In this document: positions 534 through 27,900 of the stretch, piece by piece
Layout: each line of letters starts with the position of its first letter
Numbering within the stretch: the first letter of the stretch is position 1
Assembly: GCF_030518155.1 (NCBI RefSeq)
Contig: NZ_JAULRU010000617.1
Coordinates: forward strand, 186,001-250,000
Direction of reading: 5' to 3'
From: Gilvimarinus gilvus
GTDB taxonomy: Bacteria > Pseudomonadota > Gammaproteobacteria > Pseudomonadales > Cellvibrionaceae
Length of the DNA stretch: 64,000 bases
Translations under genes and position numbers: made by a program
Notes under the pieces: model-generated
Database searches by the model: none
Told to the model about the DNA's origin: nothing
What the model saw: the letters and a program-made list of their open reading frames with translations, nothing else

Positions 534-3452
534 ATGAGTGATCGAGATGACTTTACTCTAGAAAAAGCTAATAGAGAGTTCAGAGCCGCCAATTATGTGC
601 GCGCAATAGAGCTTTATGAAAAAATAAAGAGAGAAAAGCCCGAGCTTTCAGACACTATTGATTTTAATATTCATGCTGCAGAAAGATATATGAATGGCAA
701 GTTCGGCTTCTCCAAGGCGCTTCAAGCTGTTGATCAACTTAGGATAGCAAATCAAGTGCTGAATTCAGGCCTTTGGGATGAAGAGTGGTACGCCGCAAGA
801 TATCGCAAAGACATTATGAGTGGGCCGGATAGTGCAGCACCGCTAGAGTACTATATTGCCTACGGCTGGAAGAAAGGCCACCTGCCATCCCCTGATTTCG
901 AAATAAAGAACTCTCCTTACCCCGAAGATCTTGGGGTTAACCATGTCTCATATTTTCTTGACGTCCTGAGGTTCAAAGGATACCACTTCAAGAAAGCTGG
1001 CCCATCTCCAAATCAAAAAAAAATTGACAGCTACTTAAATTTCAAATCAAAAAGACAGTCAGATAAGGTTATTTACACATGCCTGTCTGGAGATTACAAC
1101 GACCTCGTTCAGCCCGCATATATTGATTTTGACTGGGACTATGTTTGTTTTACCGATAACGTGGATGTATTGAGAAGTGGAAAGCATTGTGGAATTTGGG
1201 AGCTCCGGCCAATTGAGATCAAAGCTGAAACTCCTGGAAGAGTTAATCGGTGGTACAAGATGCATCCGCATTTACTTTTCCCTGATCACGAAAAAAGTAT
1301 TTATATTGACGGCAATATAAACATTATTGGAGATTACTGCTTTAAAGTAATTTTTTTATCGGACGAAAAGATACTACTTCCTAAACACTTTTGCCGAACT
1401 TGCATATATGATGAGATCGCGGCAGTTAAAGCATCGCAAAGGTTTACCGGAGAAGAGAAGGAAGATTTTGAGCGACAAAGACAGTTTCTTTCCGATGAGG
1501 GATATCCGGAAGGATTGGGCTTATCCGAGAACAACTTTATTTATCGAAAACATCACGACCCAGTAGTAAAATCCATGATGAACCTATGGCACTGGGTTCT
1601 CAAAAACTATTCTGCTCGTGACCAGCTGGGACTGGGGTATTGTTTTTGGAGATACGGGATTGACCTTAAGAGCAGCCTCATAGAAAACTGTCGAATAAAT
1701 TACAAAAACTTTAGAGTTTTTGCACATAATGATAACAAGAAGCTCCTTGGTGATAATACTGAAAAATTGACACCAACTGTTAACGGTGCTGTGCTTGTCG
1801 CTTTTTCTTGCAATGATACATTTGTTCCATATTTGGCGGTGGCACTGGAATCACTGGTTAAGCATTCTAGTGAGGCAACCTCCTATGACATAGTGATACT
1901 CCATTCTAGCCTTTCAGAGGCGAACGTTGTCAAATTAAGCTCTGTAGAGACCTCCAACATTTCCGTTAGATTTTATTATATGGAGGGCTTGATCTCACAA
2001 ATTGGAAATCAAATTTTCCCGGTTGATGGATATGTACCAAGGGAAACGTATAACAAATGCTTTCTTTCAGAGATTTTTGAAGGGTACAAGAGGTGTTTGT
2101 ACTTAGATTCAGACATCTTAATATGTGCGGATGTCGCGGATCTTTATCATCATGAGATGAGCGGAAAGTCAATTGCGGCCAGCAGGAATGTTGGCAATAT
2201 TAATGCAGCTTTTGTCAACAAAGAAATAAAAGGTTTTCCGTTTCGAGACTATGTCCATAATGTATTGGGCGTAAATGAATACGAAGATTACTTTCAAGCG
2301 GGCGCGGTTCTTATCGATCTTGAAGCAGTTAGAAAAATAGACCTCCTTGGTGATTCAATCAAAGCATTGAAAGCGGTTGGTAAACCAATATTTTTTGACC
2401 AATGTATTTTTAATAAGATTTTTTACAAAGATGTTTCTTTTTTTTCTACGGCATGGAATCACGTTTGGTACCTTCAGGACTACTCTTACTTAAAGTCGAG
2501 TTTACCTAAGGACGTTTTTTATGATTACGCAAAAGGCCGGCTGCACCCTAAAATTATACATTATGCAAGCGGGGATAAGTACTACAATAAGCCGGAGTGG
2601 AAGCTTGCCGATCGGTTTTGGAAATTTGTTGAGGCATCCCGGTTTGAACGGGATGTATTAGAAGATTGCAAGCACAGACTGGATGAGCAAGGACTAGAAA
2701 AGATTAAGGATTACATTGCATTTGAAAAGTGGAAAAAGCCTAAAGTTCTTATTCACCTTCATGTGTATTATCGAGATCAGCTTCCATATTTTATGGATAA
2801 ACTTGATAATGTTTCAGGCGTCGATTTTGATCTTTACGTTACACAAGTAGAAAGAAACCCTGCTGACGAAAAACTTATAAAAAGACGATTCCCTAACGTT
2901 AAAATACTTACAATTGAAAATTCGGGCTATGATATTTATCCATTCTTAGTCGTTCTTAAGCAAAATCGTCTTTCTCAATATGATTTTGTGATGAAGCTCC
3001 ACACAAAAAATTTTAGGCCCGCTGGGCAAGATGAAGTTTATGGTGTCGGTGTTCCCGGAAACACTTGGCGCGACCGCTTGGTTGACGCTGTTTTGGGTAA
3101 TGAAGAGGTATTTAAATCCAATATTAGCCTCCTAGAAAGTGATGAAAGAATTGGCTGCATCTCCGACAAGGACTTTATTTTTAGAACATCCGAGAATAAT
3201 GAGGAGCGAAACTACAGCTTGCCATATTGGCGTGGTAGAGCTCACCTCGCGCACTCTGAAGAGTATGTCGGAGGATCGATGTTCATTGCCAAGGCATATC
3301 CCTTCGAGAAGCTAATTGACGTTGGGGTTTCGGTTGATAATTTTCGGTCCGATGAATTTAAGACAAAAGACTACAAGAATTTGGCGCACGTCTTTGAGAG
3401 ATTGCTGGGGCTCGTTGTTGGCAGTGAGAAAATGAGACTTTCGGGGCGATGA
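534..3452 (+). CDS. Three-module glycosyltransferase: DUF616-like, GT8, RgpF-like
   Basis: A 972-residue cytoplasmic protein with no signal peptide. Residues 1-70 look TPR-like. Residues 80-122 carry a short module (WYAARY...EYYIAYGWKKGHLPS) often found before glycan-synthesis domains. Residues 178-400 resemble DUF616/TOD1-type glycosyltransferases. Residues 420-695 are GT8-like, with the metal-binding DSD at 525-527 and the HYASGDKYYNKPEW motif. Residues 736-960 resemble rhamnan synthesis protein F, including SGYDIYPFL and MKLHTK. It probably adds several sugars to a surface glycan; donor and linkage are unknown. The start is the first ATG of the open frame, with weak AAGG upstream. The gene is clearly AT-richer than rmlA and the genes after 6600, suggesting transfer. 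Confidence 0.8.
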   Translation: MSDRDDFTLEKANREFRAANYVRAIELYEKIKREKPELSDTIDFNIHAAERYMNGKFGFSKALQAVDQLRIANQVLNSGLWDEEWYAARYRKDIMSGPDSAAPLEYYIAYGWKKGHLPSPDFEIKNSPYPEDLGVNHVSYFLDVLRFKGYHFKKAGPSPNQKKIDSYLNFKSKRQSDKVIYTCLSGDYNDLVQPAYIDFDWDYVCFTDNVDVLRSGKHCGIWELRPIEIKAETPGRVNRWYKMHPHLLFPDHEKSIYIDGNINIIGDYCFKVIFLSDEKILLPKHFCRTCIYDEIAAVKASQRFTGEEKEDFERQRQFLSDEGYPEGLGLSENNFIYRKHHDPVVKSMMNLWHWVLKNYSARDQLGLGYCFWRYGIDLKSSLIENCRINYKNFRVFAHNDNKKLLGDNTEKLTPTVNGAVLVAFSCNDTFVPYLAVALESLVKHSSEATSYDIVILHSSLSEANVVKLSSVETSNISVRFYYMEGLISQIGNQIFPVDGYVPRETYNKCFLSEIFEGYKRCLYLDSDILICADVADLYHHEMSGKSIAASRNVGNINAAFVNKEIKGFPFRDYVHNVLGVNEYEDYFQAGAVLIDLEAVRKIDLLGDSIKALKAVGKPIFFDQCIFNKIFYKDVSFFSTAWNHVWYLQDYSYLKSSLPKDVFYDYAKGRLHPKIIHYASGDKYYNKPEWKLADRFWKFVEASRFERDVLEDCKHRLDEQGLEKIKDYIAFEKWKKPKVLIHLHVYYRDQLPYFMDKLDNVSGVDFDLYVTQVERNPADEKLIKRRFPNVKILTIENSGYDIYPFLVVLKQNRLSQYDFVMKLHTKNFRPAGQDEVYGVGVPGNTWRDRLVDAVLGNEEVFKSNISLLESDERIGCISDKDFIFRTSENNEERNYSLPYWRGRAHLAHSEEYVGGSMFIAKAYPFEKLIDVGVSVDNFRSDEFKTKDYKNLAHVFERLLGLVVGSEKMRLSGR

Positions 3453-3636
3453 TACTCCTCGGTAGCAAGTTAAACGGGCTCTTAATAGCATGAACTTTAA
3501 GGTTGATGACCGGATACTTTGAGTAATTTTTATAGATATAGCACGGCTTCGAGTTGTAGTTTGCAAAACAATCAATCATTCAACTTTCAATTTGTCTAAA
3601 TCTCTGAAGTTGCATAAACGGAGTCGATTTACACTT

Positions 3637-3723: not shown

Positions 3724-3747
3724 ATTCAAGCTAACAACGAAACCTTT

Positions 3748-3819: not shown

Positions 3820-4801
3820 GTGACTATATTGGTAACCGGATCGGCTGGATTTATAGGGGCGGACGTTGCCGAGGCATTGCTCAGCACAGGAGCAGCTATA
3901 GTGGGCGTGGACAATCACAACGACAACTATGACCCAGCCTTAAAAGAGGGGCGGCTGAAAAAATTACTGAGGCATGACAACTATTCTCATCAACGAATAG
4001 ACATTTTCAGATAAAGTAGAAATGGAACGGGTATTTTCTGTGCATAAGCCCAAGTTGGTAGTAAATCTGGCGGCTCAGGCGGGCGTTCGTTATTCGATTG
4101 AAAATCCATCAGCCTATATTCAATCAAGTATCGTGGGCTTCGGAAATGTCCTTGGAGTCTATCGAGATACAAGGATTGAGCATTCGGTTTACGCGAGCGG
4201 CTCTAGCGTCTACGGCGCAAACGAGAGAACGCCCCTCCCTGTAACTGACAATGTAAATCATCCTCTGAGCTTGTACGCAGCGACAAAAATCCAACGAATT
4301 AATGGCGCATACTTATAGCCACCTGTATGTGCTTCCGACGTCCGGGTTGCGATTTTTTACCGTTTATGGGCCTTGGGGGCGCCGGACATGGCGCCGTTTA
4401 AGTTTACTAGGTCTATTTTGAATGGAGAGCCAATAAAAGTCTTTAATTATGGCAGGCACAGGAGAGACTTTACCTACACTGATGATATTGTTGAAGGGAT
4501 TCTGCGTGTTCTTGACCGCCTAGCCACCCCCAATCCTGAATGGAAACCGTCAAATCCTGACGTGAGCAGCAGTAAGGCACCGTGGAGTATTTACAATATC
4601 GGCAATCAAAGTCCTGTCGAGCTAATGGACTATATTTCCGCACTTAAAAAATCTTTGGGCTGCGAAGCGATTAATGAATTTTTACCTATCCAATCAGGTG
4701 ATACCCCGGATACTTGTGCGGATGTTAGAAGGCTGACTAATGACACCAAGTATAAGCCTAGTATATCTGTGGAGGAGGTTGTAAATTATTTTGTCGAGTG
4801 A
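3820..4801 (+). pseudogene. UDP-glucuronate 4-epimerase-like gene with three frameshifts
   Basis: Joined across frames, the translation is an extended SDR epimerase of the UDP-glucuronate/UDP-galacturonate type: the Rossmann motif TGSAGFIGADVAEAL, then [45 protein letters not shown] and DFTYTDDIVEGI. The frame is broken near 4007-4015 (one extra base; the continuation is DKVEMERVF), near 4286-4290 (two A missing from an A run; the continuation is [13 protein letters not shown]), and near 4380 (one C missing in GRPDMA). The GTG at 3820 follows GGAG. The reading of all three pieces as one gene is strong, and the product cannot be functional. The ancestral enzyme would have fed galacturonate into the glycan made with ugd. 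Confidence 0.9.
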
Positions 4802-4840
4802 CATATGGATTATTATGGGAATAAATTAAGGAGCAATTGA

Positions 4841-5162
4841 ATCACAGTACTAAAGCCAATTGTTTTGTCGAGCGGCGCGAGTTGCCGACTTTGACCTATG
4901 TCCCGCGAACGATACCTAAAGCAATTTTTACCTTTGAAGAGCAGCAAAACTATGCCGCAAGAAAATTCGGTGAGACTGAACGGGGTTGCGGCTGGAGCAT
5001 CGATTTTGGTGTGCGATGAGAAGTTCAGATTTCTTGCGGCTGAGATAATGAGACAGCTAGGTCTTTTCTATCGTAATATTTTTTTGAAGCCATTTTCTCG
5101 CAATACGTATTCAGCTGTGGCGTTGGTTACTATAAAAGATAAACTTGATGCGGCATTGCTTG
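4841..5162 (+). pseudogene. manC: Remnant of mannose-1-phosphate guanylyltransferase (ManC), N-terminal part
   Basis: In one frame the sequence reads LKPIVLSSGASCRL, a TGA stop at 4892-4894, then PMSRERYLKQFLPLK, later LNGVAAGASILVCDEKFRF and LKPFSRNTYSAVALV. This follows the ManC N-terminus (GGSGSRLWPMSREKYPKQFL in the family), with the conserved Trp codon TGG changed to TGA. A good AAGGAG at 4828-4833 stands before ATC at 4841, which may be a lost ATG. Similarity stops near 5162, about a quarter into the usual length. GDP-mannose for the downstream gmd must therefore come from another locus. Confidence 0.87.
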
Positions 5163-5291
5163 CCTACTATACTGAGCGTCTTCGCCAAATCGATACTCAG
5201 CGCTGTAAGATTCACGGAAAGCGCTCCTCTGGCTGGTTCGGATGCAACGCTAGCTTTACGGCGGCACGGTACTGGCCGTTAATACGAGGGG

Positions 5292-5333
5292 GAGCCCATA
5301 GCGTTCGTTATGGGGGCTCGGCTTTTTGCTTTT
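5292..5333 (+). terminator. Hairpin with T-rich tail
   Basis: GAGCCC-ATA pairs with TAT-GGGGGCTC across a short loop and is followed by GGCTTTTTGCTTTT, so it resembles a rho-independent terminator. It lies in the roughly 380-base stretch between the manC remnant and the next methyltransferase gene. Nothing else was recognised in that stretch. Confidence 0.5.
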
Positions 5334-5544
5334 ATTGGGGTTTCGGCCTGGCCCGTCGACTTCATGCCTCGGGCCAAGTTAACCGGCATTGGAGTTTTCC
5401 GGCTCGTCGCAGGCTAGGCAGCTCCGCTCCTGGTGGAGGTCGAAAAGTAAGAAGTTATCAGCCACATTATCGCTACCGGTAGAGTATACCAGTAAGAGAA
5501 ATAGAGGCTGTGGCAGATCGCAGAATATACTAGGTGACAACACA

Positions 5545-6432
5545 ATGCTCGTAGATAATTTGAATATCCCTAAAAGCTTCGACGTCGAATTTTATAGGAG
5601 CGATAAACCGTTTCTTCAATCTGCAGATGAAGCAACTGATCATTTCTTGAGCAAGGGTAAGCGCCAAGGCTTCAAGGGTTCCCCCGCTTGCGACCAAGGC
5701 TATCTGCTTCGTTTTGTGCATAGATTAAAGCCTGACCTGATGCTCGAAATCGGCCCTGGAAGTGCGCCGAAACTTAAGGGGCCCAATGTTCGATACTTTG
5801 ATGTAAAGTCGAAGAAAGAGCTTGAAGATCGCTATATAAATGACGTTAGCTCTTCTCAAATACCGGACATAATTCATTATGTCGATAAGGAGGGGTCGCT
5901 AGGCGGCATCAATGACAAGTTTGATGTTGTATTCTCGTCGCACGCTATTGAGCATACGTTCGATTTCATAGCTCACCTTAATGAGGTGGAAGAGGTTTTG
6001 AAAGGTAATGGTTTATACGTTTTGGTGGTACCCAATAAAAATTTTACTTTTGATTACTTTAAGCCAGTCTCTATTCTTGAAGATATCTTGGCGGCACATT
6101 TCGATTGCAATCAAAAACCAAGTTTGCCTCTTAAATCAATGCTTTTGGAAATTAATCGACGTACGCATAATAACCCTAAGGAACATTGGGCAGGATCTCA
6201 CGGAGATCTAGGCTTTGATAAGAAAAGTATTCTGGATGGTATAGAGAGGTTTCGGCGCACGGCGAGCGATAGCGTAGCGGCAAGTGGATATCATAATTGG
6301 ATTTTTACTGAGAATTCTTTTGAAGAAATAGTGACTAGGTTGCATGACTTGAATTTGATCTCACTTCGGGTGCTGGGAATATATAATACTCCATTTAACG
6401 GAATGTCATTTTCTGCGATTCTGGGAAAGTAG
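5545..6432 (+). CDS. Class I SAM-dependent methyltransferase
   Basis: A 295-residue protein. After a short N-terminal module (SFDVEFYR...DHFLSKGKRQGF) of the kind seen in glycan-synthesis proteins comes a Rossmann methyltransferase: LMLEIGPGSAPKL is motif I, FDVVFSSHAIEHT is motif IV with the usual H-x-IEH, and NGLYVLVVPN is the next strand. The family methylates small molecules or sugars; the acceptor here is unknown, but the context suggests a glycan residue. The open frame extends upstream to 5389, but ATG 5545 is chosen because AGGTG lies about eight bases before it and the upstream residues match nothing. Confidence 0.75.
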   Translation: MLVDNLNIPKSFDVEFYRSDKPFLQSADEATDHFLSKGKRQGFKGSPACDQGYLLRFVHRLKPDLMLEIGPGSAPKLKGPNVRYFDVKSKKELEDRYINDVSSSQIPDIIHYVDKEGSLGGINDKFDVVFSSHAIEHTFDFIAHLNEVEEVLKGNGLYVLVVPNKNFTFDYFKPVSILEDILAAHFDCNQKPSLPLKSMLLEINRRTHNNPKEHWAGSHGDLGFDKKSILDGIERFRRTASDSVAASGYHNWIFTENSFEEIVTRLHDLNLISLRVLGIYNTPFNGMSFSAILGK

Positions 6433-6642
6433 ACGGTTTTCTTTTTGAGGGTACTTCTATTATACAGAATCACCTCTGGTCTCCAGGGCTTTTCGAGATC
6501 AAGGCTGCGGTAGCTTTCAGCCCAGTTGTCACTGCGAGCCCGACAGGTACCAAATTGCCACGGCTGAGCGAGATTACTTGCGAGGAATTTCCTATTATGA
6601 TGTGAAGCCGTCGAAATAGATGCAGGGGTGGAATTGCGAGGT

Positions 6643-8583
6643 ATGATTGAAGTGAGCAATGTAACGGCGAGTGTCCCATCCGTCGATAAGATTCGGCAAG
6701 CATTGGCCGAGGGGGCTCTGTCCCGTAAGGAGGCCGCTCGCCTATTGGCGGACAATGTCCAACGCTCCCTCGCACTGCTATCGGGAGCCCAGCTCTCAGC
6801 AACGTCGTTTACTCATTCTTGCTCATCGGCGGCAGCTAGGTTACTGCGAACACTTAATATGTGCGGGCCCAGTCTGCGAATCATCGAAGTCGACGCACCC
6901 GTAACCTTGCCTTTGTCTGGACAGTATGACCTGGTGGTCATCGCAGGCTATCACGAGACGTTTGCCAGCGACACAAACATGGTCGATCCGCTGAGTCACC
7001 TGTTGCGCCGAGCCTATTCGGCTTTGGCGCCTGGAGGCAGTGTTGTTATTGCCGGGCACAATGCTTTAGCCTTGCGGCATTTTAATGGGCAGCGCGACGT
7101 CTATGGGCGCGAGGGGGCGGCCTCAGTCGAAAGACTATTTCCTAGTGGCAGCCCGAAGCTGTGGTCGGCAAAAGCTGTTCATCGAGCACTCGCCAAGACG
7201 GGGTTTCAGGCCCAAGCCCCTTGTGCATTGATGGGCACGGTCGCGCAGCCTCGGCTGTTGGTGTCTCCTCAGGGGTGTGAATTACCGGCCGAGCGCTGGA
7301 ATCTTGAAACGTTGGTTCGTCGCGCTTTGGCGGGTATTGAGCCCGAGCGCCTGGCCCGATTTTCCGAAAGCCGCGTGCTGAGCGAAATAACGCGGGGCGG
7401 TGCGCTAGCGGACTGGAGCGATGGTTATGTGCTTTTGGGCCATAAGTCGGCAGCGCCTCAGTTTTCGTTTGGTGGCTGGCTAGCAAGTGCCTTTTCTCGG
7501 CAAGGTTCCGGCGATGATGTACAAGAAACGCGGTTTACAATTGAGGCCAGCAATGATGCAGAGAGCGGCGATATCCGGGTGGAAACCTATAGCCAGGGCA
7601 ACGTCAAACCTGTCTCTGTAACGCCTTATATTAATGGCACGGTCTACCGGGACCGGTTGGATGACCTGCTACAAACCCCCGGCTGGGCATTTGAACAAGT
7701 GTTGCAGTGGAGCGCCGTGTGGCTGCGCTGTTTGCTGGCTTCTATTGATGCTGACGAGGCATCATCGTCCGATGAACCCTTTGCGGCATCGTTTGCCGGA
7801 GATTATGACTTCCAGGTGCCAGCCAGGCTGCTTCTCGCCACGCCCAGCCAATGGATTCAGCGCCCAGATGGCAGCTTTCACTGTTTGTACGAAACGGCGG
7901 AATCCGATGGTACAGTGCCAATGGCATCAGTACTGTACGTTGGCCTTCTGAGCGCCTTTACTACCCTTCGCTCGGTCGCGGAACCTGCCGATTCTGCTTG
8001 GCTTGAGCCTTTGGCGCTGGCTGAGGCCGTGGTAGGCAGGCTTGGTTACTCCATCTCTGAGCATGACTACGAGGTACTGGTGCTCAACTGGCAGAAAGTA
8101 AGCGGCACCCAGCTCCCTAAGCCGGTAGCTTTTTTTGCTCGGCTGAATCAACACCCTATGATAGATGAAGCCAAACTTTACTGGGCCACAAAGTCGGAGG
8201 GCTTTTCTGAAAGTAAAACCAGCACCGACACCTTGAATTTGGACGGGAGGAGTCAGGTCCTGCGGTTGCCTATCGCCAGCGCGGACCAGACTGTGACCGC
8301 TCTGCGTTTCGATGTGGCCAATAGGCCGGGCTGCTTTGACATCGAAAGCATGACCGTGTTGCAGGTCAACGGTGAGGTGCTCTGGCGATGGGATCATACC
8401 CGTGAAGCGCTATCGGGCATTCGGAATGCGACTCTCGTACTAGACGGTCGCTCTTGTCTATTGAGTCGAGGGAATGACCCTCAGTTGGTATTAAATTTAC
8501 CGGAACCTGCCCTCTGTGCAGGCGGCGAGCTTAAAGTCCGCTTGTCAGCTTGGCCGCAACGACTGGAAATAAATAAGGATTAA
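6643..8583 (+). CDS. Methyltransferase-like protein with novel C-terminal domain
   Basis: A 646-residue protein. Residues about 20-260 look like a degenerate Rossmann methyltransferase: YDLVVIAGYHETF, LAPGGSVVIAGHN, and a later WSDGYVLLGHK as in glycan-cluster methyltransferases. The rest is not recognised; its last 130 residues are predicted beta-rich (LRFDVANRPGCFDIESMTVL). A broken second copy of the C-terminal half lies at 10922-11761, so the C-terminal part is a conserved unit. ATG 6643 is preferred (AGGGGTGG about 11 bases upstream); GTG 6628 is possible. The next reading frame starts two bases after the stop. Substrate unknown. Confidence 0.6.
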   Translation: MIEVSNVTASVPSVDKIRQALAEGALSRKEAARLLADNVQRSLALLSGAQLSATSFTHSCSSAAARLLRTLNMCGPSLRIIEVDAPVTLPLSGQYDLVVIAGYHETFASDTNMVDPLSHLLRRAYSALAPGGSVVIAGHNALALRHFNGQRDVYGREGAASVERLFPSGSPKLWSAKAVHRALAKTGFQAQAPCALMGTVAQPRLLVSPQGCELPAERWNLETLVRRALAGIEPERLARFSESRVLSEITRGGALADWSDGYVLLGHKSAAPQFSFGGWLASAFSRQGSGDDVQETRFTIEASNDAESGDIRVETYSQGNVKPVSVTPYINGTVYRDRLDDLLQTPGWAFEQVLQWSAVWLRCLLASIDADEASSSDEPFAASFAGDYDFQVPARLLLATPSQWIQRPDGSFHCLYETAESDGTVPMASVLYVGLLSAFTTLRSVAEPADSAWLEPLALAEAVVGRLGYSISEHDYEVLVLNWQKVSGTQLPKPVAFFARLNQHPMIDEAKLYWATKSEGFSESKTSTDTLNLDGRSQVLRLPIASADQTVTALRFDVANRPGCFDIESMTVLQVNGEVLWRWDHTREALSGIRNATLVLDGRSCLLSRGNDPQLVLNLPEPALCAGGELKVRLSAWPQRLEINKD

Positions 8584-8584
8584 A

Positions 8585-8945
8585 ATGTTAGCGGTTATAG
8601 GATTTCACCGGAGCTTGAGCTCGGTCGTGGCTCAGTGGTTGCACAAATCCGGCTTGTGCATGGGCGAATACTTGATGCCCCCCCTCACCCGCGAATCCGG
8701 AAGGGCATTACGAGGATATGCCCTTGGTTGCATTGCACGGTGAGCACTGGGGCATGAAAGACCCGCGTCAGTGCGTGTTCCTGCCTCATTGGCAGCAGGT
8801 GGTGGGGGATCGTGGGCGTTATCTGGTGGTACTGCGCCATTGGAGTGCAAGCATTCAATCGCTCCTGAAGCGCTCCACGCGGGATATTGCATTGGGGGTC
8901 CGTATGCCACCGTTGATAGTCGATTTTGGTGGACAGCTAGCTTCT
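8585..8945 (+). pseudogene. Broken copy of the sulfotransferase-like gene at 15115
   Basis: From ATG 8585 the DNA follows 15115-15590 almost base for base but is damaged in three ways. A frameshift lies near 8685-8700 in the PPSPANPEG region. An in-frame loss of 117 bases falls between two TGCACG repeats, which are still both visible in the intact gene at 15263 and 15380. A second frameshift near 8905 is followed by loss of similarity at about 8945. The surviving pieces read LAVIGFHRSLSSVVAQWLHK, MPLVALHGEHWGMKD and RYLVVLRHWSASIQSLLKR. Both copies share an AAATAAGGATT leader before the ATG. It cannot make a functional enzyme. Confidence 0.92.
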
Positions 8946-9160: not shown

Positions 9161-9853
9161 ATGCGAACAAAACCTACATACCTCCTCATCTCTGTGCTGG
9201 CGGCCGGCTTGCTGGGTACTGTTTTAGCACCTCATTCGGCCATTGGGCAGGAGGACGCCGTCGTGGTGACTGAGAGCGGGGTTGGAATGGGAACGGCCAC
9301 TCCAGAGACCCCACTTCATGTCCACACAAGCGCGGCGGCGGACACAAACATGCTTCTGCTCAGCAATGATGGAGGCAGCCGGATTTATTTCAGAAACCGA
9401 ACAGCGCCTGAATCGGGGAACGACTCACGCAGCTGGGTATTCGCCACCACCGAGCCCGGATTTAGAGTAAGTCGAACTTTCAGCGGCCAAACAGAGATGG
9501 AGCTTGGCAACGCCGGGAATCTAAGCATCTCCGGTACACTTAGCCAAGGTTCGAGCCGTGCCATTAAGCACGATATCCAACCACTAAGTGGAGAGTGGGT
9601 ACTTTCAAATCTCTCAAAGCTTGAAATAAATGAATGGAGATATGATGAGGCTCCAGATCAACGACACGTGGGCCCTATGTCTGAAGACTTCTTTGACGCC
9701 TTTGGTCTGGGTCCGGACAACAAGCATATTGCCCCAGGTGATATGGCCGGCCTTTCCCTGGCCGCTGTCAAGGCGCTGCATGATGAGAATAAACGGTTGG
9801 AAGAACGCCTGGAGCGACTCGAACAAGCCCTCCTTCAGAGTGGCAGCCTGTAG
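9161..9853 (+). CDS. Secreted protein with S74-type intramolecular chaperone domain
   Basis: A 230-residue protein with an N-terminal signal peptide (LLISVLAAGLLGTVLAPHSA). Residues 38-125 are short beta repeats of the type GVGMGTATPETPLHV...GNLSISGTL. Residues about 130-205 match the S74 endosialidase-type chaperone: SSRAIKHDIQPLSG with the putative self-cleavage serine at 131/132, then LEINEWRY and HVGPMSEDF. Residues 203-226 form a coiled coil (ENKRLEERLERLEQAL). In this family the C-terminal domain drives trimer folding of a fibre or spike and may cut itself off. AAAGGAG lies before the ATG. Its place inside a glycan locus suggests a surface fibre; the role is unproven. Confidence 0.75.
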   Translation: MRTKPTYLLISVLAAGLLGTVLAPHSAIGQEDAVVVTESGVGMGTATPETPLHVHTSAAADTNMLLLSNDGGSRIYFRNRTAPESGNDSRSWVFATTEPGFRVSRTFSGQTEMELGNAGNLSISGTLSQGSSRAIKHDIQPLSGEWVLSNLSKLEINEWRYDEAPDQRHVGPMSEDFFDAFGLGPDNKHIAPGDMAGLSLAAVKALHDENKRLEERLERLEQALLQSGSL

Positions 9854-14058: not shown

Positions 14059-14060
14059 TG

Positions 14061-19500: not shown

Positions 19501-19819
19501 TGGTATGGGCTTAACCGTTTTTGCCCAGGTGACGCCACCACTGGAGGACTTGGCTGCCAAAGGCGCCTTTATTCCAGTTACCCGGGATAACCTTAAAGGT
19601 CGCCTACAGCAGTGGCTGGCATCTGGTGACCAATCCCATAGACAAAAAGGCCGCGCCGTTTTTAAAGCGGAACTTACCGTGGAGGCTGTAGCGCCGATCA
19701 TTGGGAGCATTGTGAAAGAAAGCTCACTTCGGCGCGCGCGTGCGCTGCGCTGGGGGGAGCAATTGGCGAGGCTGACGACAGGCCAACTACCTGCCGGTGT
19801 GCCTTTGCCAAACGACTGA
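16544..19819 (+). CDS. Multidomain glycosyltransferase: RgpF-like, GT2, GT4-like
   Basis: A 1091-residue protein. Residues 8-235 resemble rhamnan synthesis protein F ([28 protein letters not shown]). Residues 343-560 are a GT2 domain ([35 protein letters not shown], and [12 protein letters not shown] as the acceptor ED motif). Residues about 690-1060 are a GT-B, GT4-like domain ([21 protein letters not shown], and [13 protein letters not shown] near the donor site). Three transferases in one chain would allow processive building of an oligosaccharide; sugars are unknown. The start overlaps the previous gene by 8 bases. Confidence 0.8.
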
Positions 19820-19853
19820 GAAGAGAAGAAGCCAAAAAATTTGGGGGTTAGTT

Positions 19854-21020
19854 TTGAAGATAGCAGTTGCTGGTACCGGCTATGTAGGCCTGTCCAATGC
19901 CATGTTGTTGGCACAACACAATGAAGTGGTCGCGGTGGATATAGCACCAGAGAAGGTAGCGCTGTTGAATGACAGAGTGTCTCCGGTAGAGGACGCTGAA
20001 ATATCCGACTTCCTGTCCAATCACGACTTGAATTTCACTGCGACACTGGATAAGGAATTGGCTTACCAGGGCGCAGATTTCGTTGTCATTGCCACGCCCA
20101 CGGACTACGACCCGGCAACCAACTATTTCGATACGAGTAGTGTCGAGGCAGTGATTCGCGATGTGATGAGCATCAACCCCGGTGCTGTTATTGTGATTAA
20201 GTCTACCGTGCCCGTGGGCTATACCCTTGGCGCTCGAGAGAATCTGGGTACTGAGAACCTAATTTTCTCGCCAGAGTTCCTTCGGGAGGGAAAGGCACTC
20301 TACGACAACCTATACCCGTCCCGCATTGTCGTGGGTGAGCAATCTGAGCGAGCAGAAACCTTTGCCAATTTGCTTAAGCAGGGCATGTTGAAAAGTAGTG
20401 TGTCCGTTTTGTTCACCAACAGTACAGAAGCCGAAGCTATTAAGCTATTTGCCAATACCTACCTCGCAATGCGGGTGGCCTATTTTAACGAACTGGATAC
20501 CTATGCCGAAGTGCATGGATTGGATTCTCGTCATATTATTGAAGGCGTGGGCCTGGACCCGCGAGTGGGCGATCATTACAAAAACCCTTCTTTTGGTTAC
20601 GGGGGTTATTGCCTGCCCAAGGATACCCGGCAGCTTCGGGCCAATTACGATGCGGTGCCCAACAATCTGATTGGGGCCATTGTCGATGCCAACAGCACCC
20701 GCAAGAACTTTATTGCCGAATCCGTTATCAAGCGTAATCCCAAAATGGTGGGGAACTATCGCCTGGTTATGAAAACAGGCTCCGACAATATCAGAAGCTC
20801 CTCTGTACAGGGCGTGATGAAGAGAATTAAAGCGAAAGGGATTCCCGTGGTGGTTTATGAGCCTGTGCTAAAGGAGTCCAGCTTTTACAACTCAGAAGTT
20901 GTCCGCGACCTGGATACGTTCAAGGCTATGGCGGATGTGATTGTGGCCAATCGCATGTCCGATGAAATTAAGGACGTAGAAGAGAAAGTCTACACTCGCG
21001 ATCTTTTTGAGCAGGATTGA
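19854..21020 (+). CDS. ugd: UDP-glucose 6-dehydrogenase
   Basis: It oxidises UDP-glucose twice with NAD to UDP-glucuronate. The start is taken as TTG 19854, which has GGGG upstream and gives 388 residues, the length of E. coli Ugd; the open frame begins further up but adds unrelated residues. The N-terminal NAD fold shows [38 protein letters not shown] and [15 protein letters not shown] are family signatures, the latter with the catalytic cysteine. It opens a co-directional run ugd-exostosin-gmd-fcl-gmm with gaps of about 2-15 bases. The product may be used directly as glucuronate, since the epimerase gene at 3820 is dead. Confidence 0.95.
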
Positions 21021-21033
21021 CCGGTAGTTGAAG

Positions 21034-22266
21034 ATGACCACTTCAGAAGCCTTTTGGTTCGGAAGATTTCAGGTATCCCGGAGTTCAGACAGTTTGATCT
21101 TCAGGGATGCCCTGATCCCTGGCTGTCGTGTGCTGCCCCTCAATCGATTTTCCGGCCAGGAAGGAGCGCAAAGAACACTCTCTTACTTTCAGTATGGCTT
21201 TCTTCCGTCTGCCGCCTCCTTATGCAGCGCAGAGGTATCCGATGGGCCGGAGCATGACCAGGCGCCCATGTTCTGGCAGTTTCCCTGCATTACTGAAAAG
21301 GCCGCATGGCTTAACCACCTAAAACAACCCAATGCGGTTCGTACACCGGGCGCCCTCAATATTTATTTGGGGCTGCCTTGGGCTACCTGGATAGACTTGT
21401 ATCGCAAAACCGGCTGGGATGGCAATGTTCGCCAGCGAATACAAATGCAGGTTCGAATCCTCGCTGTGCGCTTAAGTGGCTATCGCCATGCGCTTTCTAC
21501 CTTGGGGTATCAACTGCGTGTCCATACAGTCTGCCAGCATATTTACTGGCGTGATATGTTGCAGATATGGCGACAGCTGGGTGTTACGGATGCCTGGGTA
21601 TCTCACTGCACCCCGGAGTTGCAGGATTCTTTCGTGGAAGGAGTTCACCTACATCCCTGGGCTTTGTATGCCGTTAATGCTGAAGACTCGGATCGCCAGG
21701 AGGGCTTGGTGGTGGGCAGGCCCCCTGCTGAAAAGCCTGTGTTGGCGTCGTTCGTGGGCGCCCATGCTCCCCACTATTTGAGTGATATACGCCTTCAACT
21801 TGCCCCCTTGAACAACGAGCCCGACTGTGTGGTGAAGGTAACCGACAAGTGGCATTTTGAGGACGTTGTCTATCAACATCAAATCAGTGGTGCGGATCTC
21901 TCTGCCGCCTACCGGCTTGACGAGTCGGTCACCGATTACAATCGCTTGCTCAGTGATTCGGTATTCGCTTTGTGTCCGTCTGGTGCCGGGCCCAATACCC
22001 TGAGATTGTGGGAGGCGCTCGCAGTGGGGGCCGTACCGGTATTGCTCGGGGAGGTTCCCGCCCTGCCTGACGGGGGTAGTTTGAGTTCTATCGATTGGGA
22101 TGCCATCATTCTTCGTTACCCCCACAGCTCGCTGGAAGGGTTGCCGTCCTGGCTACGCGCCATTCCCATGCAGGAGGTGGTTAAGCGGCAGACGAAGGGG
22201 CTGGAAGCTTATCAACAGGTCAAGGCCCAAAGCTGTTTTAATTGGTCCGCAGGCTCGCACGAGTAG
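21034..22266 (+). CDS. Exostosin-like (GT47-type) glycosyltransferase
   Basis: A 410-residue protein. The C-terminal half has the exostosin-type donor region: KPVLASFVGAHAPHYLSDIR, YNRLLSDSVFALCPSGAGPN and TLRLWEALAVGAVPVLL. GT47 enzymes transfer sugars such as glucuronate, xylose or galactose, so the neighbouring ugd makes a uronate transferase attractive, but this is inference. ATG 21034 is chosen; a TTG six bases upstream is in frame. The gap to gmd is 7 bases. No TM segment is seen. Confidence 0.72.
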   Translation: MTTSEAFWFGRFQVSRSSDSLIFRDALIPGCRVLPLNRFSGQEGAQRTLSYFQYGFLPSAASLCSAEVSDGPEHDQAPMFWQFPCITEKAAWLNHLKQPNAVRTPGALNIYLGLPWATWIDLYRKTGWDGNVRQRIQMQVRILAVRLSGYRHALSTLGYQLRVHTVCQHIYWRDMLQIWRQLGVTDAWVSHCTPELQDSFVEGVHLHPWALYAVNAEDSDRQEGLVVGRPPAEKPVLASFVGAHAPHYLSDIRLQLAPLNNEPDCVVKVTDKWHFEDVVYQHQISGADLSAAYRLDESVTDYNRLLSDSVFALCPSGAGPNTLRLWEALAVGAVPVLLGEVPALPDGGSLSSIDWDAIILRYPHSSLEGLPSWLRAIPMQEVVKRQTKGLEAYQQVKAQSCFNWSAGSHE

Positions 22267-22273
22267 ATAACAC

Positions 22274-23392: not shown

Positions 23393-23398
23393 TGCGAC

Positions 23399-24373
23399 AT
23401 GCACACTCCACGTGATCAAACCGTATTTGTAGCGGGCCACCAGGGGATGGTGGGCTCGGCCATAGTGCGCCACCTGAAAGCTTTGGGCTATCAGAACATT
23501 GTAACCACCTCGCGCGATGAGCTGGATTTGTCCAACCAGCAAGCGGTACAGGATTTCTTTGCATCCACGCCTGTGAACCACGTTTATTTGGCTGCGGCTA
23601 AGGTTGGCGGCATTCATGCTAATAGCACCTACCCGGCTGAATTTATCTACAAAAACTTGACGATTGAATCAAATATTATTCACTCGGCGCATCGTACAGG
23701 TGTTCAGAAGTTATTGTTTTTGGGCTCGTCGTGTATTTACCCTAAAATGGCAGAACAGCCGATGCGCGAGGATGCGTTGCTTACCGGTATTCTGGAGCCA
23801 ACTAACGAGCCCTACGCCATTGCTAAAATTGCGGGCATAAAACTGTGTGAAAGCTATAACCGGCAGTATGGCCGCGACTACCGCTCGGTTATGCCAACCA
23901 ACTTATACGGGCCAAACGATAACTTTCACCCTGAGAACAGTCATGTAATTCCCGCTCTACTGCGCCGATTTCACGTGGCAAAAGAGCGTGGTGATGCCAA
24001 GGTTACTGCCTGGGGCACGGGCACTCCCATGCGAGAGTTTTTACACGTAGATGATATGGCTGCTGCCAGTGTATTTGTAATGAACCTCGACAACCCCACC
24101 TACCAGAAACATACCCAGCCTATGCTTAGCCATATTAACGTGGGTACTGGAGTAGACTGTACCATTAGAGAACTCACTGAAACCGTCGCCAAGGTCGTCG
24201 GATTTGAGGGGAACATTGAGTGGGACCCCAGTAAGCCAGATGGCGCCCCGCGCAAGTTGATGGATGTGTCTCGCCTGCGCAATCTTGGGTGGAGTTACGC
24301 AATTGAATTGGAAGACGGTCTTCACAATGCTTACCAGTGGTTTTTAAACAACCAAGACCACTTTAGGGGGTAA
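23399..24373 (+). CDS. fcl: GDP-L-fucose synthase
   Basis: A 324-residue SDR epimerase-reductase that turns GDP-4-keto-6-deoxymannose into GDP-L-fucose with NADPH. The start of the protein shows [18 protein letters not shown]. The catalytic set is [12 protein letters not shown] (Ser) with [18 protein letters not shown] (Tyr-x3-Lys). [20 protein letters not shown] and [13 protein letters not shown] are family signatures. GAAGG lies before the ATG. It follows gmd and precedes gmm with no room for other genes, so the three are probably one transcript. Confidence 0.97.
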
Positions 24374-24375
24374 CG

Positions 24376-24840
24376 TTGCATTTAAGTAAGGCCGATTTTA
24401 CTCACGCAATTGCCCATACCCCGTTAGTCTCCATTGACCTTGTGGTGAGAAACCCTCAAGGTCAATTTCTTTTGGGTTGGCGAAACAACCGCCCTGCAAA
24501 AGATCACTGGTTTGTTCCCGGCGGACGCGTTCAGAAAGGCGAGCGCCTAGAGGATGCTTTTCTACGACTGACGCAAGAAGAGTTGGGGCAACCGGTATCT
24601 ATGACGGAGGCAAGCTGGAAAGGCGTGTACGAGCACTTTTACGATGACTTTGTTTTCAGCGACGAATCACATCAAGACGTTTCAACGCATTATGTTGTGC
24701 TGGCGTTTGAAATTGCACTTAGCGAAGCGACAGAAAGCTTGCCTAAAACTCAGCATGCACAATACCGGTGGATGTCAACAAACGACATTTTAAAAAACAG
24801 CCAAGTTCACGAATACACACGAGCCTATTTTACTCAGTAG
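24376..24840 (+). CDS. gmm: GDP-mannose mannosyl hydrolase (Nudix family)
   Basis: A 154-residue protein of the usual Gmm length. It carries the modified Nudix box of this family (GGRVQKGERLEDAFLRLTQEELG, read in two parts: GGRVQKGERLEDAF and LRLTQEELG), which lacks one canonical Glu, and the family stretches VVRNPQGQFLLGWRNNRPAK and YEHFYDDFV. The enzyme hydrolyses GDP-mannose or GDP-glucose to GDP and the sugar and is commonly encoded beside gmd and fcl. The start is TTG 24376 with AGGGGG just upstream, inside the end of fcl. Confidence 0.93.
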   Translation: MHLSKADFTHAIAHTPLVSIDLVVRNPQGQFLLGWRNNRPAKDHWFVPGGRVQKGERLEDAFLRLTQEELGQPVSMTEASWKGVYEHFYDDFVFSDESHQDVSTHYVVLAFEIALSEATESLPKTQHAQYRWMSTNDILKNSQVHEYTRAYFTQ

Positions 24841-25060: not shown

Positions 25061-26764
25061 TTGTTTAACACTGTTTCTGACAGTTTTCGCTGGCTTTTAA
25101 CCCTAGGCGGTAAGTTCTTTCGAGTAGCCCCGGGGGCGACGCTGTTTGTAATTCCCGCCACACTGGTCTCACAAGTGGCTATGTTACTCGCGTTTTTACT
25201 TCCGTTAAAAGTTTTAATACTTATCGGCTCAGACCGTATTCCCCGTTACCTCTCGCAAGATTTTATTGAAGTCGACCGGAATACACTGATTTTAGCGCTA
25301 AGCATCGCGACACCCGCCTTTTATATTATCCACCTGGTTATGGAGCGGCTAGTTCAGTGGGCATCCAATATGGGGGCCAAACAACTTCTGGAAAGAAGCC
25401 GCAAAATTATTTTGTTCGAAAATCAAGATGACCTAGCCGCCTCAAGCTATCAGCGCTATGCGCTCGCACTGGCAAATACGGTTTTTATTGGCTGCGTCTG
25501 GCTGGCATTGGGTTTTTTATTCCCCCCTCTGTGCGTGTTACTGATTGGCTTCACCACACTCTGTGTGATCTTTTTAGCATTGGCCCACAAAAGCAGTAAA
25601 TCATTGCGCGAACGCATTGACGATAATTTAACCTCTATAGTGCCCGTACTAACGGGGCTGGGGTTTATGCTGGCGTTTTTATTGTTAGTGCAGCAGTTTT
25701 TATCCGGCGCTGTCCAAGGTTTTTTAGTGGCGATAATATCCGTCATTCTAACAAGGCAGGCATTGAACAGAACAAACAAACTGGTGAGCTCTGGAGTAAG
25801 CTTGTACAGCAACCGGCGTAAGCTAAATGCCATGTTTTTTGCAGAGCATTCGCTGACTCAGGTAGACGATAAGCAAACGGAATTTTGGTCATTATTTGCA
25901 TCAGAAACCAGACAGACCTGGCTTCACCCGCTGCTGCGTGAGCAGCTAGCAATAGACCCAGCCAATTTGAACGTTACATGGCATCAAACCGGGGCTAGCG
26001 AAGTGATTGCCCTGGAGGCTGAAGCCTACAACTCTGAGAATGAACTAATAGGGAGTTATTTGGTTCGAGTATACGGAAAAAACCCTTCATTGCCTGCCAG
26101 CCATGAGGCTACGCTGCTATTGGATGAATCCAGTACGCGCTTACCAGCCCTACCCTTGCTGGCCGCAGGCCAGGTAGGAAAGTGGCCTTGTCATATCTAC
26201 TCGTTGCCCCAAGGCTGCTCATCAGTGGCTCCTGGCAAACACACACAAAATTACTTAACCGCTTTATTCGCCTTTGAGCCGCCCAATGATTTAGCCGAAC
26301 GCTACGCGCGCTCACACCCTATGCTATGGCAGCGCTTGGATTCCACCGTGCTAGAGCGTTTAAACATGGCCGCTGACGAGAGCACCTTGCCAATCGTACA
26401 AAGCCTGGAGCAGCAGCTACCGAGCATGCTAGAGACTGTTCGCAATCTGCCACTGATAATAGTAAACTCCACCATTAACTCCAACACTCTGCTGGTAGAT
26501 GCGGAAGAACAGCTTTGGATTACCGATTGGGGCCGCTGGACCCTGGAACCGCTTGGGAGCAATTGGCCCCTTACGTTGAAGAGCTTACAAGACTTGCCAC
26601 ATGCACTCCAGCAGGCATCCCTTCGACGTTCGGCATTGCAGTCGGTTAAGGCAAAAGATGTGACTTTAGCCGCTTTACTGTTTCAGTTCGATAGGCTCTG
26701 CACCCAGCAGGTTTATCTGGACGCCTTGGCATTTATTCCTAAATTACTGGAGGCACAAGAATAG
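25061..26764 (+). CDS. Six-TM ABC-exporter-like domain fused to a degenerate kinase-like domain
   Basis: A 567-residue protein of unknown function. Six hydrophobic segments at about 26-54, 74-96, 132-150, 152-176, 191-211 and 216-236 have the layout of an ABC-exporter membrane domain, but no Walker A, LSGGQ or Walker B follows. Instead residues about 290-520 look like an aminoglycoside-phosphotransferase/kinase fold: YLVRVYGK as the lysine strand, an HEAT helix, then IIVNSTINSNTLLVD and WITDWGRW. The usual HGD-h-H-x2-N catalytic loop is replaced by NSTINSN, so the catalytic Asp is missing. TTG 25061 has AGGAG seven bases upstream; TACAAT at 25019-25024 may be its -10 box. Confidence 0.55.
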   Translation: MFNTVSDSFRWLLTLGGKFFRVAPGATLFVIPATLVSQVAMLLAFLLPLKVLILIGSDRIPRYLSQDFIEVDRNTLILALSIATPAFYIIHLVMERLVQWASNMGAKQLLERSRKIILFENQDDLAASSYQRYALALANTVFIGCVWLALGFLFPPLCVLLIGFTTLCVIFLALAHKSSKSLRERIDDNLTSIVPVLTGLGFMLAFLLLVQQFLSGAVQGFLVAIISVILTRQALNRTNKLVSSGVSLYSNRRKLNAMFFAEHSLTQVDDKQTEFWSLFASETRQTWLHPLLREQLAIDPANLNVTWHQTGASEVIALEAEAYNSENELIGSYLVRVYGKNPSLPASHEATLLLDESSTRLPALPLLAAGQVGKWPCHIYSLPQGCSSVAPGKHTQNYLTALFAFEPPNDLAERYARSHPMLWQRLDSTVLERLNMAADESTLPIVQSLEQQLPSMLETVRNLPLIIVNSTINSNTLLVDAEEQLWITDWGRWTLEPLGSNWPLTLKSLQDLPHALQQASLRRSALQSVKAKDVTLAALLFQFDRLCTQQVYLDALAFIPKLLEAQE

Positions 26765-26805
26765 TGTTCTTTGGCACTCTAGTAAGAAGATACCCTATCA
26801 CTAGC

Positions 26806-26850: not shown

Positions 26851-26907
26851 TAGGTCGCCAATATTTCGGTGATATGGTTTTTCGTTAACCCAAGAATTCA
26901 ACCCCGA

Positions 26908-27900
26908 TTAGTCGAAGGTGGCTTTTGAAGAGGCCTCCAAGGCTTTATCAATGTAACCTTCAACCTCGCCAAGGGTAAGCTTGATTTTTGAAGACTTATC
27001 AGGATAACCGGAAAAATCTTCACTGAAAAAGTATTTTTCATTTGATCCTAAAGTATTCGCAAGTTTTTTATTCGAACGTGAAAACCTCTTAAATAGTTTC
27101 CGAGCCTCGTTTTTAGGGGGAAGGTAAGGCGTCCCAACATAAAATTGTCTAATTCGCCTTATTACCTGAGCGGTTCTGTCTTTATACTTATTGCTATCAG
27201 AGAGATCTTTGTTAAAGCGTCGCAAAACTTCTGCCCCAAGCGCTGACATTGACGGATTGCGCCTAGACTTCTCAAAAATCAAGTTGTCGGGCATACCTAC
27301 AACATCCGAAAAAGTTCTCACCACATCACCACACTTATCATAATCATAGAAAATCAAACTTTCTTTTGGAAGGAATGATGCCCATCCTTTAAGTACTTTA
27401 AAATAATTGCGCCCCCTAGGAATTCCGTAAGAATAATAAAAAACTTTTGAATCTGTCGCCCCTCTATTCGTAAGCCTGGTTGTATAGGCACTTACAGCCC
27501 ATTTGTCCTGCCTCTTAAAAAAGCCAAAAACCAAAATCTCAGAGAAGTACTTCTTTAGCATCGAAGTTAACTTGCTAATCTCACTAGAATTTAGCCGAAT
27601 CAAACCCTCGAAAGAAAAAATAACCGTATGAGAGTCACTGCCTTTTATTTCTTCAGCTATTCCATTCTCTAGGAGCGCATCTAAGTCCACATTCTCAGAT
27701 ATTGCATTTTTGTCTTTAAACATCTTTATAAAATGACGATTACCAGCATAAGCAGCTAACCCCATATCGTAGTAACCAACTTTTGTTGATTTTAGAGACA
27801 AGAACCCTTTCTTCAATAACTCCACTTTATTATTGTGTATGAACATTTGGCGGGATTTGGACCCTGTCTTTTCATCCCCGATATCTAATACTGCTCTCAT
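26908..27900 (-). CDS. Sulfotransferase-like protein (divergent KTGS branch)
   Basis: A 330-residue protein. Its N-terminus reads LDIGDEKTGSKSRQMFIHNN, the form of the PAPS-binding loop (GxxKTGTxxxQ) of a branch of P-loop sulfotransferases from glycan loci. FGFFKRQDKWAVSAYTTRL fits the 3'-phosphate segment (R...S) of the same branch. The KTGS version and the overall divergence leave activity open. The gene is clearly AT-richer than its neighbours, faces the other way from the glycan locus, and lies beside a repeat scar, so it was probably acquired separately. It could belong to the sulfation set or be a leftover of another island. Confidence 0.6.
   Translation of the reverse strand: MRAVLDIGDEKTGSKSRQMFIHNNKVELLKKGFLSLKSTKVGYYDMGLAAYAGNRHFIKMFKDKNAISENVDLDALLENGIAEEIKGSDSHTVIFSFEGLIRLNSSEISKLTSMLKKYFSEILVFGFFKRQDKWAVSAYTTRLTNRGATDSKVFYYSYGIPRGRNYFKVLKGWASFLPKESLIFYDYDKCGDVVRTFSDVVGMPDNLIFEKSRRNPSMSALGAEVLRRFNKDLSDSNKYKDRTAQVIRRIRQFYVGTPYLPPKNEARKLFKRFSRSNKKLANTLGSNEKYFFSEDFSGYPDKSSKIKLTLGEVEGYIDKALEASSKATFD

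Follow-up and report, generated by a model that had tools for sequence, protein, structure and literature searches.

We report that a 64,000-nucleotide stretch of the Gilvimarinus gilvus draft genome contains the larger part of a chromosomal surface-polysaccharide locus which, judging from its genes, probably makes a sulfated heteroglycan. The stretch, called the window here, comprises bases 186001-250000 of contig C79 (NZ_JAULRU010000617.1; 314,728 bases) in an assembly of 4.78 Mb and 852 contigs; Gilvimarinus is placed in Cellvibrionaceae, and negative coordinates denote window coordinates upstream of base 1. Sulfotransferase genes lie here within a locus of nucleotide-sugar and glycosyltransferase genes, the arrangement known from sulfated capsules and exopolysaccharides. 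An original prediction, made for positions 534 to 27,900, had proposed a sulfated fucose/rhamnose/uronate glycan. The sulfotransferase-rich locus, the sugar precursors and the gene context in relatives are in line with it, whereas its statement on sulfotransferase density did not hold and its locus boundary was incomplete. Comparison with related genomes identified a matching locus in G. xylanilyticus, and since cysC-cysQ, cysD-cysNC and ABC exporter genes occur near the relatives, we consider a sulfated glycan to be the best reading.

Sulfotransferase families of the locus

Four intact sulfotransferase-like genes had been predicted, at 9998, 14061, 15115 and 26908 (reverse strand). All four open reading frames (ORFs) are present, and profiles place all four proteins in the superfamily of sulfotransferases dependent on 3'-phosphoadenosine-5'-phosphosulfate (PAPS). 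In the hidden Markov model search against Pfam, only 9998-10864 was recognized (PF13469, 64.1 bits against a cut-off of 27). The best sulfotransferase model for 14061 was PF17784 (E 0.015, 15.5 bits against a cut-off of 22.8), while no sulfotransferase model appeared for 15115 and 26908 at E<=1. Because three of the four proteins failed the Pfam cut-offs, the earlier motif-based reading needed a better test, and it was profiles of outside relatives that assigned these three to the superfamily.

When 26908 was searched in the order, surveyed throughout as 244 genomes with this one counted among them, matches were obtained in 16 genomes, its own included. A profile was then built from 16 outside sequences (alignment A5; 15 of the 19 fetched relatives' loci and one plasmid relative), with no protein of this genome, and run against the 202 ORFs of the window and the 80 kb upstream. 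It matched 26908 at 6e-45, two upstream ORFs at -7925 (8e-23) and -9135 (1e-16), and 14058, the ORF of the 14061 gene, at 2.6e-9; 9998 came next at 0.11, the remainder scored 0.64 or worse, and no other ORF fell below 0.1. As a control, three sulfotransferase profiles matched none of 233 ORFs on other contigs and one of 171 ORFs in the C79 flanks (6.9e-6, via the 15115-family profile), which we read as a tetratricopeptide repeat (TPR) match, that profile being TPR-like C-terminally. Moreover, a 26908 family profile lacking 14058 and -9135 matched the solved sulfotransferase structure 3rnl at 9e-8.

For 15115, matches were found in 43 of the 244 genomes, its own included, at least two of which (G008, G168) match in the TPR part only. 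PF13469 was matched by 19 of the 26 aligned family members, and the family profile (alignment A1, using 25 of the 29 fetched relatives' loci) matched the CurM sulfotransferase among solved structures at 1e-7, together with tyrosyl-protein sulfotransferases. Single-sequence searches of solved structures were replaced by these profile searches: 15115 alone gave 21 weak matches, for the most part to ribosomal L4 chains and to TPR or designed repeat proteins, and 14061 alone gave antibody chains among the matches listed (the best 60 of 63), both of which we regard as noise. A profile-profile comparison of alignment A3 (26908, 14058 and kin) with A1 gave E 1.1e-4 but a probability of 55.8%, and was not taken as proof.

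Gene order and extent of the locus

The genes of the locus within the window, with strand and basis of assignment, are as follows.

1..438, +: rmlA (glucose-1-phosphate thymidylyltransferase), 3' part; by eye and by match to the same-place G. xylanilyticus gene (551.6 bits)
534..3452, +: multi-domain glycosyltransferase, TOD1/MUCI70 + GT8 + RgpF-like (Pfam)
3826..4828, +: broken UDP-glucuronate 4-epimerase, split over two frames; the intact G. xylanilyticus protein as tblastn query, Pfam Epimerase match in the 3' piece, substrate by eye
4847..5482 (start approximate), +: remnant of a broken manC (GDP-mannose pyrophosphorylase); NCBIfam GMP_PMI matches residues 1-81 only, at 62.9 bits against a cut-off of 373
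5389..6432, +: methyltransferase-like protein (Methyltransf_11, 23.3 bits); true start probably downstream of the listed TTG
6628..8583, +: 651-amino-acid (aa) protein, N-terminal half weakly methyltransferase-like; 63% identical to the G. xylanilyticus protein preceding the FHRSL sulfotransferase
8585..8932, +: broken duplicate of the 15115 sulfotransferase (blastn, tblastn)
9161..9853, +: short protein, signal-peptide-like by eye, carrying an S74 (chaperone of endosialidase) domain (Pfam PF13884)
9998..10864, +: sulfotransferase (Sulfotransfer_3), 288 aa; Pfam PF13469
10969..11761, +: incomplete second copy of the 3' part of 6628-8583; blastn, 66-72% identity
11848..14058, +: multi-domain protein with glycosyltransferase-like N-terminus, methyltransferase and FkbM methyltransferase; Pfam PF05050 and PF13649, N-terminus by eye
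14058..14987 (ATG at 14061), +: sulfotransferase; profile 2.6e-9, motifs
15115..16551, +: sulfotransferase of FHRSL[TS]S form, 478 aa, C-terminal extension with weak TPR matches; profiles
16544..19819, +: multi-domain glycosyltransferase, RgpF + GT2 + GT4-type (Pfam)
19797..21020, +: UDP-glucose 6-dehydrogenase (UGD), translation probably starting near residue 20 of the ORF as listed; NCBIfam models
21028..22266, +: exostosin-like GT47 glycosyltransferase; PF03016, 49.2 bits
22274..23392, +: GDP-mannose 4,6-dehydratase (gmd); NCBIfam TIGR01472 over cut-off
23399..24373, +: GDP-L-fucose synthase (fcl); NCBIfam NF047922 over cut-off
24376..24840, +: GDP-mannose mannosyl hydrolase (gmm, Nudix); NCBIfam NF011963 over cut-off
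25061..26764, +: membrane protein of no known family, its N-terminal half containing about six hydrophobic segments
26908..27900, -: sulfotransferase-family protein, 330 aa, deviating cofactor motifs; profile 6e-45

The predicted dTDP-rhamnose, UDP-glucuronate and GDP-fucose genes are real as far as rml, UGD, gmd, fcl and gmm are concerned, but the UDP-glucuronate epimerase and manC, unseen by the original prediction, are broken. Only the final 438 bases of rmlA lie inside the window. The best model for UGD was PRK15057 (UDP-glucose 6-dehydrogenase), at 663.7 bits below its cut-off of 757, and TIGR03026 was over its cut-off. Two of the three multi-enzyme glycosyltransferases that had been proposed, 534 and 16544, were confirmed; the third, 11848, carries two methyltransferase domains by Pfam, and its glycosyltransferase-like N-terminus was seen by eye only.

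From 11848 to 24840 the genes form a compact operon in the order multi-domain transferase, 14058, 15115, RgpF/GT2/GT4 enzyme, UGD, GT47, gmd, fcl and gmm. The gaps between the genes as listed are -1, 127, -8, -23, 7, 7, 6 and 2 bases, the value of -23 resting on the listed ugd start, where the ugd model begins at residue 20. The gene at 14058 overlaps or directly abuts the preceding stop, and 15115 overlaps 16544 by 8 bases. This coupling of 14058 and 15115 to neighbouring genes is the best local evidence that both act on the glycosyltransferase product. The sulfotransferases could instead act on another target, a small molecule or a glycoprotein such as the S74-type protein at 9161; this surface-like protein is encoded next to a sulfotransferase gene, and the structures matched by the 15115 family profile include protein-tyrosine sulfotransferases. 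However, we consider such a target very improbable, given the overlapping or abutting glycosyltransferase genes, a G. xylanilyticus unit of 643-aa protein, sulfotransferase and glycosyltransferase with no S74 gene seen between them, and relatives located among glycosyltransferase and sugar genes in several loci.

For a sulfated glycan, we propose that dTDP-rhamnose (rmlBCDA), GDP-fucose (gmd, fcl) and UDP-glucuronate (ugd) would feed the multi-domain glycosyltransferases, which would assemble the chain in the cytoplasm. The chain or its repeat units would then receive sulfate from PAPS through the PAPS-dependent sulfotransferases, two of them within the glycosyltransferase operon. The PAPS itself would be supplied by the adenosine 5'-phosphosulfate (APS) kinase gene cysC, which is located away from the locus next to a cysQ-like gene, and the chain would exit by a route that the locus does not encode, either a Wzx/Wza system on contig C185 or an exporter since lost. 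Protein families, gene order, the compactness of the operon, the broken genes and the matching loci are direct observations, and the glycan acceptor, the sugar composition, the sulfation and the export route are deduced. The C-terminal half of the membrane protein at 25061-26764 recalls kinases by eye (ITDWGRW), and could bear on export or glycan phosphorylation.

The locus continues beyond the window. Directly upstream lie rmlB, rmlC, rmlD and the start of rmlA, with RmlB (TIGR01181), RmlC and RmlD over the NCBIfam cut-off. A further sulfotransferase with an open frame occupies -9135 to -7981, its Pfam scores falling just below two cut-offs, and a second broken sulfotransferase is found at -7925, with the loop HLGPEKTGTSSIQ in another frame just before it. 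Aminotransferase, ATP-grasp, oxidoreductase and more glycosyltransferase genes reach to about -25 kb. Taken together, the locus extends at least 9 kb, and probably about 25 kb, upstream of the region first described, and seven sulfotransferase genes, five open and two broken, fall within about 37 kb.

Such a density had been called unusual for one bacterial glycan locus, which we reject. Psychromonas sp. SP041 has five profile-confirmed sulfotransferase ORFs in 20.8 kb. In another genome (G079), 38 kb contain three sulfotransferases by profile, a fourth that passes the Sulfotransfer_2 cut-off and a fifth that narrowly misses it, and two PF10364 capsule proteins. Sulfotransferases are also widespread in the order, 171 of the 244 genomes having at least one over the PF13469 cut-off. 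Seven genes in 37 kb, the broken ones counted, place the locus at the rich end among the loci compared, a comparison that is no systematic locus survey.

In the upstream part of the locus, the proteins of L003:1523-3349 (608 aa) and L003:5898-8363 (821 aa) had no Pfam match even at E 1; the latter, with roughly 13 hydrophobic segments, may be a polymerase or a membrane glycosyltransferase. The ORF at -5632 is weakly related to a 606-aa G. xylanilyticus protein (E 2.7e-5 over 49 residues), while a relation of -4250 to an 848-aa protein of that species was unsupported (E 0.013 over 25 residues). L002:1035-5957(-), which lies upstream of the glycan locus, encodes a large, surface-like protein of 1641 aa with twelve matched DUF7933 stretches. 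Three short surface-like proteins lie near the glycan genes (window 9161-9853, L002:6-932(-) and L062:19280-19999(-)); the S74 Pfam domain occurs in the first only, and the other two show a 'GxGTxxP' repeat look by eye and no Pfam family at 0.001. Elsewhere, the window encodes a protein with three matched DnaT DNA-binding stretches (38332-39468), one matching both DUF4124 and pilin (42490-43722(-)), and a 669-aa protein with invasin-type Ig-like domains, Big_1 (58869-60878).

Cofactor motifs and the atypical loop of 15115

The motifs considered here are a loop of K/R-x-G-T/S-T/S type and an R-x7-S motif, which we take to be the 5'-phosphosulfate and 3'-phosphate motifs, respectively. The original prediction held PAPS motifs to be directly visible, and this is so for 9998, 14058 and 15115, and for the upstream -9135 as well, in all of which both motifs were found. 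The loop is typical in 9998 (GAQRSGTSWL) and 14058 (GLPKAGSTYLQ), with the 3'-side motifs RDPAARVWS and RNPRDWLRS, respectively, and the R and S of R-x7-S are kept in 9998, 14058 and 15115. In contrast, 26908 deviates at several conserved sites in the motif region DIGDEKTGSKSRQ: the conserved Arg, present in the other 19 of 20 aligned sequences, is Lys in 26908, the second T/S site of the loop, Ser or Thr in the others, is likewise Lys, and a position that is His in the others is Asp. The loop Lys, the loop Gly and the motif Ser are retained, and the reading frame is open.

In the loop of 15115, Gly is replaced by Leu (FHRSLTS). A scan of named genomes with a three-sequence alignment as query found 25 loci, while the same scan with 15115 alone as query gave no match. 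The tree of the 15115 domain has 25 rows, with L104 omitted; L084, L085, L090, L096 and L099-L104 were omitted from the corresponding alignment (A4). The loop residue is Gly in 12 rows, Ala in seven and Leu in five, and one row is unclassed. The Leu rows comprise the window gene and loci of Gilvimarinus, Allopusillimonas, Amphritea and Vreelandella (L080, L081, L089, L091), and since Leu is common to four named genera, it is not a sign of decay in this strain. Together, the Leu and Ala forms (FHRS[LA][TS]S) make up 12 of the 25 rows, and their branch ranges over several gammaproteobacterial families, one betaproteobacterium and one alphaproteobacterial metagenome-assembled genome. The support of this group is 93/87, below the threshold of 95/80, and rows L102 and L103 are very long branches; therefore, we claim a single origin for neither the Leu nor the Ala replacement.

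PAPS-synthesis genes occur in the same locus in four of the 12 Leu/Ala-form loci, the window counted among the 12. The window has none linked, none were seen in about 21 kb at L088 and L089, and four others sit on contigs of 4.6-11.9 kb, where little context is visible. It is conceivable, although we think it unlikely, that FHRS[LA][TS]S represents a distinct mode of holding PAPS, tied here to the RgpF/GT2/GT4 enzyme and, with GT47 in the operon, making a heavily sulfated fucose-glucuronate-rhamnose polymer resembling animal glycosaminoglycans.

Duplication, decay and related loci

The single broken sulfotransferase of the original prediction was found at 8585-8932; the stretch 8571-8932 is a copy of parts of 15101-15579 with 83-89% DNA identity. 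About 106 internal bases are deleted, the frame changes, and no match is seen past the equivalent of 15579. Likewise, 7794-8405 and 10969-11583 are duplicates in parts (blastn). The genes for the 643-aa protein, the sulfotransferase and a 1093-aa glycosyltransferase follow one another unbroken in G. xylanilyticus, from which we infer that the window holds a similar cassette that was duplicated and opened by genes inserted between 9161 and 14987. A fragment about 41 kb upstream of the window (L062:18612-19043(-)) resembles the N-terminal part of 11848 by eye, a further sign of duplication and decay. With an assembly fragmented into 852 contigs, some of the broken genes may be assembly errors; we think this quite improbable, since the internal loss, the missing 3' part and the identity of 83-89% do not fit a sequencing slip, and the contig of the window itself spans 314,728 bases.

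The two broken sulfotransferase copies, the broken epimerase and manC, and a 26908 protein that is perhaps inactive indicate that the locus was reshuffled by duplication and partial decay. In the extreme case it would be a decaying remnant of a locus once like that of G. xylanilyticus, which has lost the exporter, epimerase, manC and two sulfotransferases and makes no surface polymer now. In accordance with this, 6628 is partly duplicated, the motifs of 26908 deviate, and a Wzm matching that of G. xylanilyticus was not found in the genome. However, the operon 11848-24840 is open and compact, the GDP-fucose genes and UGD are intact, and contig C185 carries an epimerase-like gene (by eye) and a second UGD, so that some losses may be covered. 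Overall, we regard a dead remnant as unlikely.

No export gene had been recognized in the locus, which is borne out genome-wide for the Kps and Wzm types, while a Wzx/Wza system is present on another contig. PF01943 (Wzx) and PF02563 (Wza) were matched only on C185 and not in the locus, other flippase families lying outside the search. C185 has a likely polymerase by eye, and no sulfotransferase was found there by profile; its system may act in trans on the locus product. Genes like those for the lipopolysaccharide core, MsbA and O-antigen ligase were seen by eye on C79, about 15-22 kb past the window end. As for PAPS supply, the APS kinase gene cysC (235 bits) lies beside the cysQ-like gene on contig C302, and C618 carries one other match, a weak one of 22.8 bits.

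Several observations weigh against a sulfated product. In this genome the PAPS-synthesis genes lie apart from the locus. KpsC/S (PF05159) had no match anywhere in the genome, and a Kps-type capsule was accordingly rejected. PF01061 (ABC-2) had six matches, none of them on C79 and with neighbours that by eye belong to other ABC transporter types; none matches the G. xylanilyticus Wzm at 1e-6, and they were rejected as the missing Wzm. Among the sulfotransferases, 14058 is nearly without relatives, with one other match in the 244 genomes, weak and partial (3.9e-4), and two weak matches in 72,556 plasmid records, and 26908, by descent a member of the family, may be inactive in view of its deviating cofactor motifs. 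Four genes of the locus are broken (two sulfotransferase copies, the UDP-glucuronate epimerase and manC), and with no Kps or Wzm exporter found, the locus may be partly or wholly silent. Furthermore, the O-antigen cluster of Aeromonas salmonicida has a sulfotransferase gene while the known structure is reported without such a residue (PMC4483657), so a sulfotransferase gene in an O-antigen cluster is no proof of sulfate. In the literature, covered by titles and abstract openings with few subscription papers, no Gilvimarinus sulfated glycan and no chemistry of this organism was found, and the main text of the G. xylanilyticus description makes no mention of sulfate, capsule, exopolysaccharide, O-antigen or lipopolysaccharide (PMC9638140).

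The nearest named relative found is G. xylanilyticus HB14 (L091), whose 15115 protein is 78% identical across all 478 residues. Its contig C8 (L091, L112-L117) has orthologues of rmlBCDA, 6628 (63%), 15115 (78%) and 16544 in the same order as here. In contrast to the window locus, epimerase and manC are intact, cysC, the cysQ-like gene and an ABC exporter pair adjoin, there are three sulfotransferases, and the intervening and following genes differ. The stretch comprises cysC, a cysQ-like gene, manC (by eye), the ABC-2 exporter pair, ugd, rmlBCDA, a sulfotransferase, the epimerase, the cassette and a third sulfotransferase. We read the ABC-2 membrane protein and the ABC ATPase as wzm-wzt, and about 27 kb separate cysC from the cassette sulfotransferase. 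Probably, cysC-cysQ is simply the ordinary copy of that genome; since the same pair stands by MATE- and leuA-like genes on C302 here, its linkage in G. xylanilyticus may reflect where the locus landed. Linkage to PAPS synthesis was also seen in other relatives: in Allopusillimonas soli cysD-cysNC runs directly into a 15115-family gene, in Psychromonas hadalis the 14-kb contig of the locus also carries cysD and cysN, and in Marinobacter sp. ATCH36 four sulfotransferases lie within about 40 kb together with cysDNC, rml genes, KpsC/S-type genes and a Poly_export gene.

The window locus and its cleaner sister in G. xylanilyticus offer a testable set of sulfotransferases tied to named sugars; those of the sister are tied to PAPS synthesis and an exporter as well. 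If sulfation is confirmed, they would be candidate enzymes for the production of glycosaminoglycan-like polymers, and the loci would illustrate how such clusters arise and decay. The atypical-loop sulfotransferases and the sister locus are, in our view, points of moderate interest.

Loci for sulfated glycans are known from other marine bacteria. The synechan xss cluster of Synechocystis 6803 likewise joins polysaccharide machinery to two dedicated sulfotransferases, xssA and xssE, but is cyanobacterial and has its own regulators (PMC13125312), the likeness being drawn at the level of description. For the gammaproteobacteria Vibrio sp. KMM 8419 (PMC11641403) and Cobetia marina KMM 1449 (PMC11766843), capsules with chemically shown sulfate are reported, and their loci have a similar gene inventory. 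The marine gammaproteobacterium C. marina has a sulfotransferase gene beside rgpF and rml, together with PAPS synthesis; it differs in having kpsETMD, kpsSC, cysN/C-cysD-cysQ and a wcb operon in the locus, none of which was found beside the window locus (PMC11766843). The 95-kb capsule/O-antigen locus of Vibrio sp. KMM 8419, with three sulfotransferase genes reported, shares with the window rml genes, glycosyltransferases including RgpF, several sulfotransferase genes, PAPS-dependent sulfation and a mosaic make-up, while its cysNDC and kpsDME/T/S lie inside the locus and the polymer structure is known (PMC11641403). PAPS-synthesis genes in the polysaccharide cluster were termed a hallmark in that report (PMC11641403), and as they are unlinked here, we do not file the window locus as a full member of this type. 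Compared with Vibrio sp. KMM 8419, it is without linked PAPS and export genes, has broken genes, and adds those for fucose and glucuronate. Overall, it belongs to a known kind of system, of which it is a sulfotransferase-rich and partly broken example.

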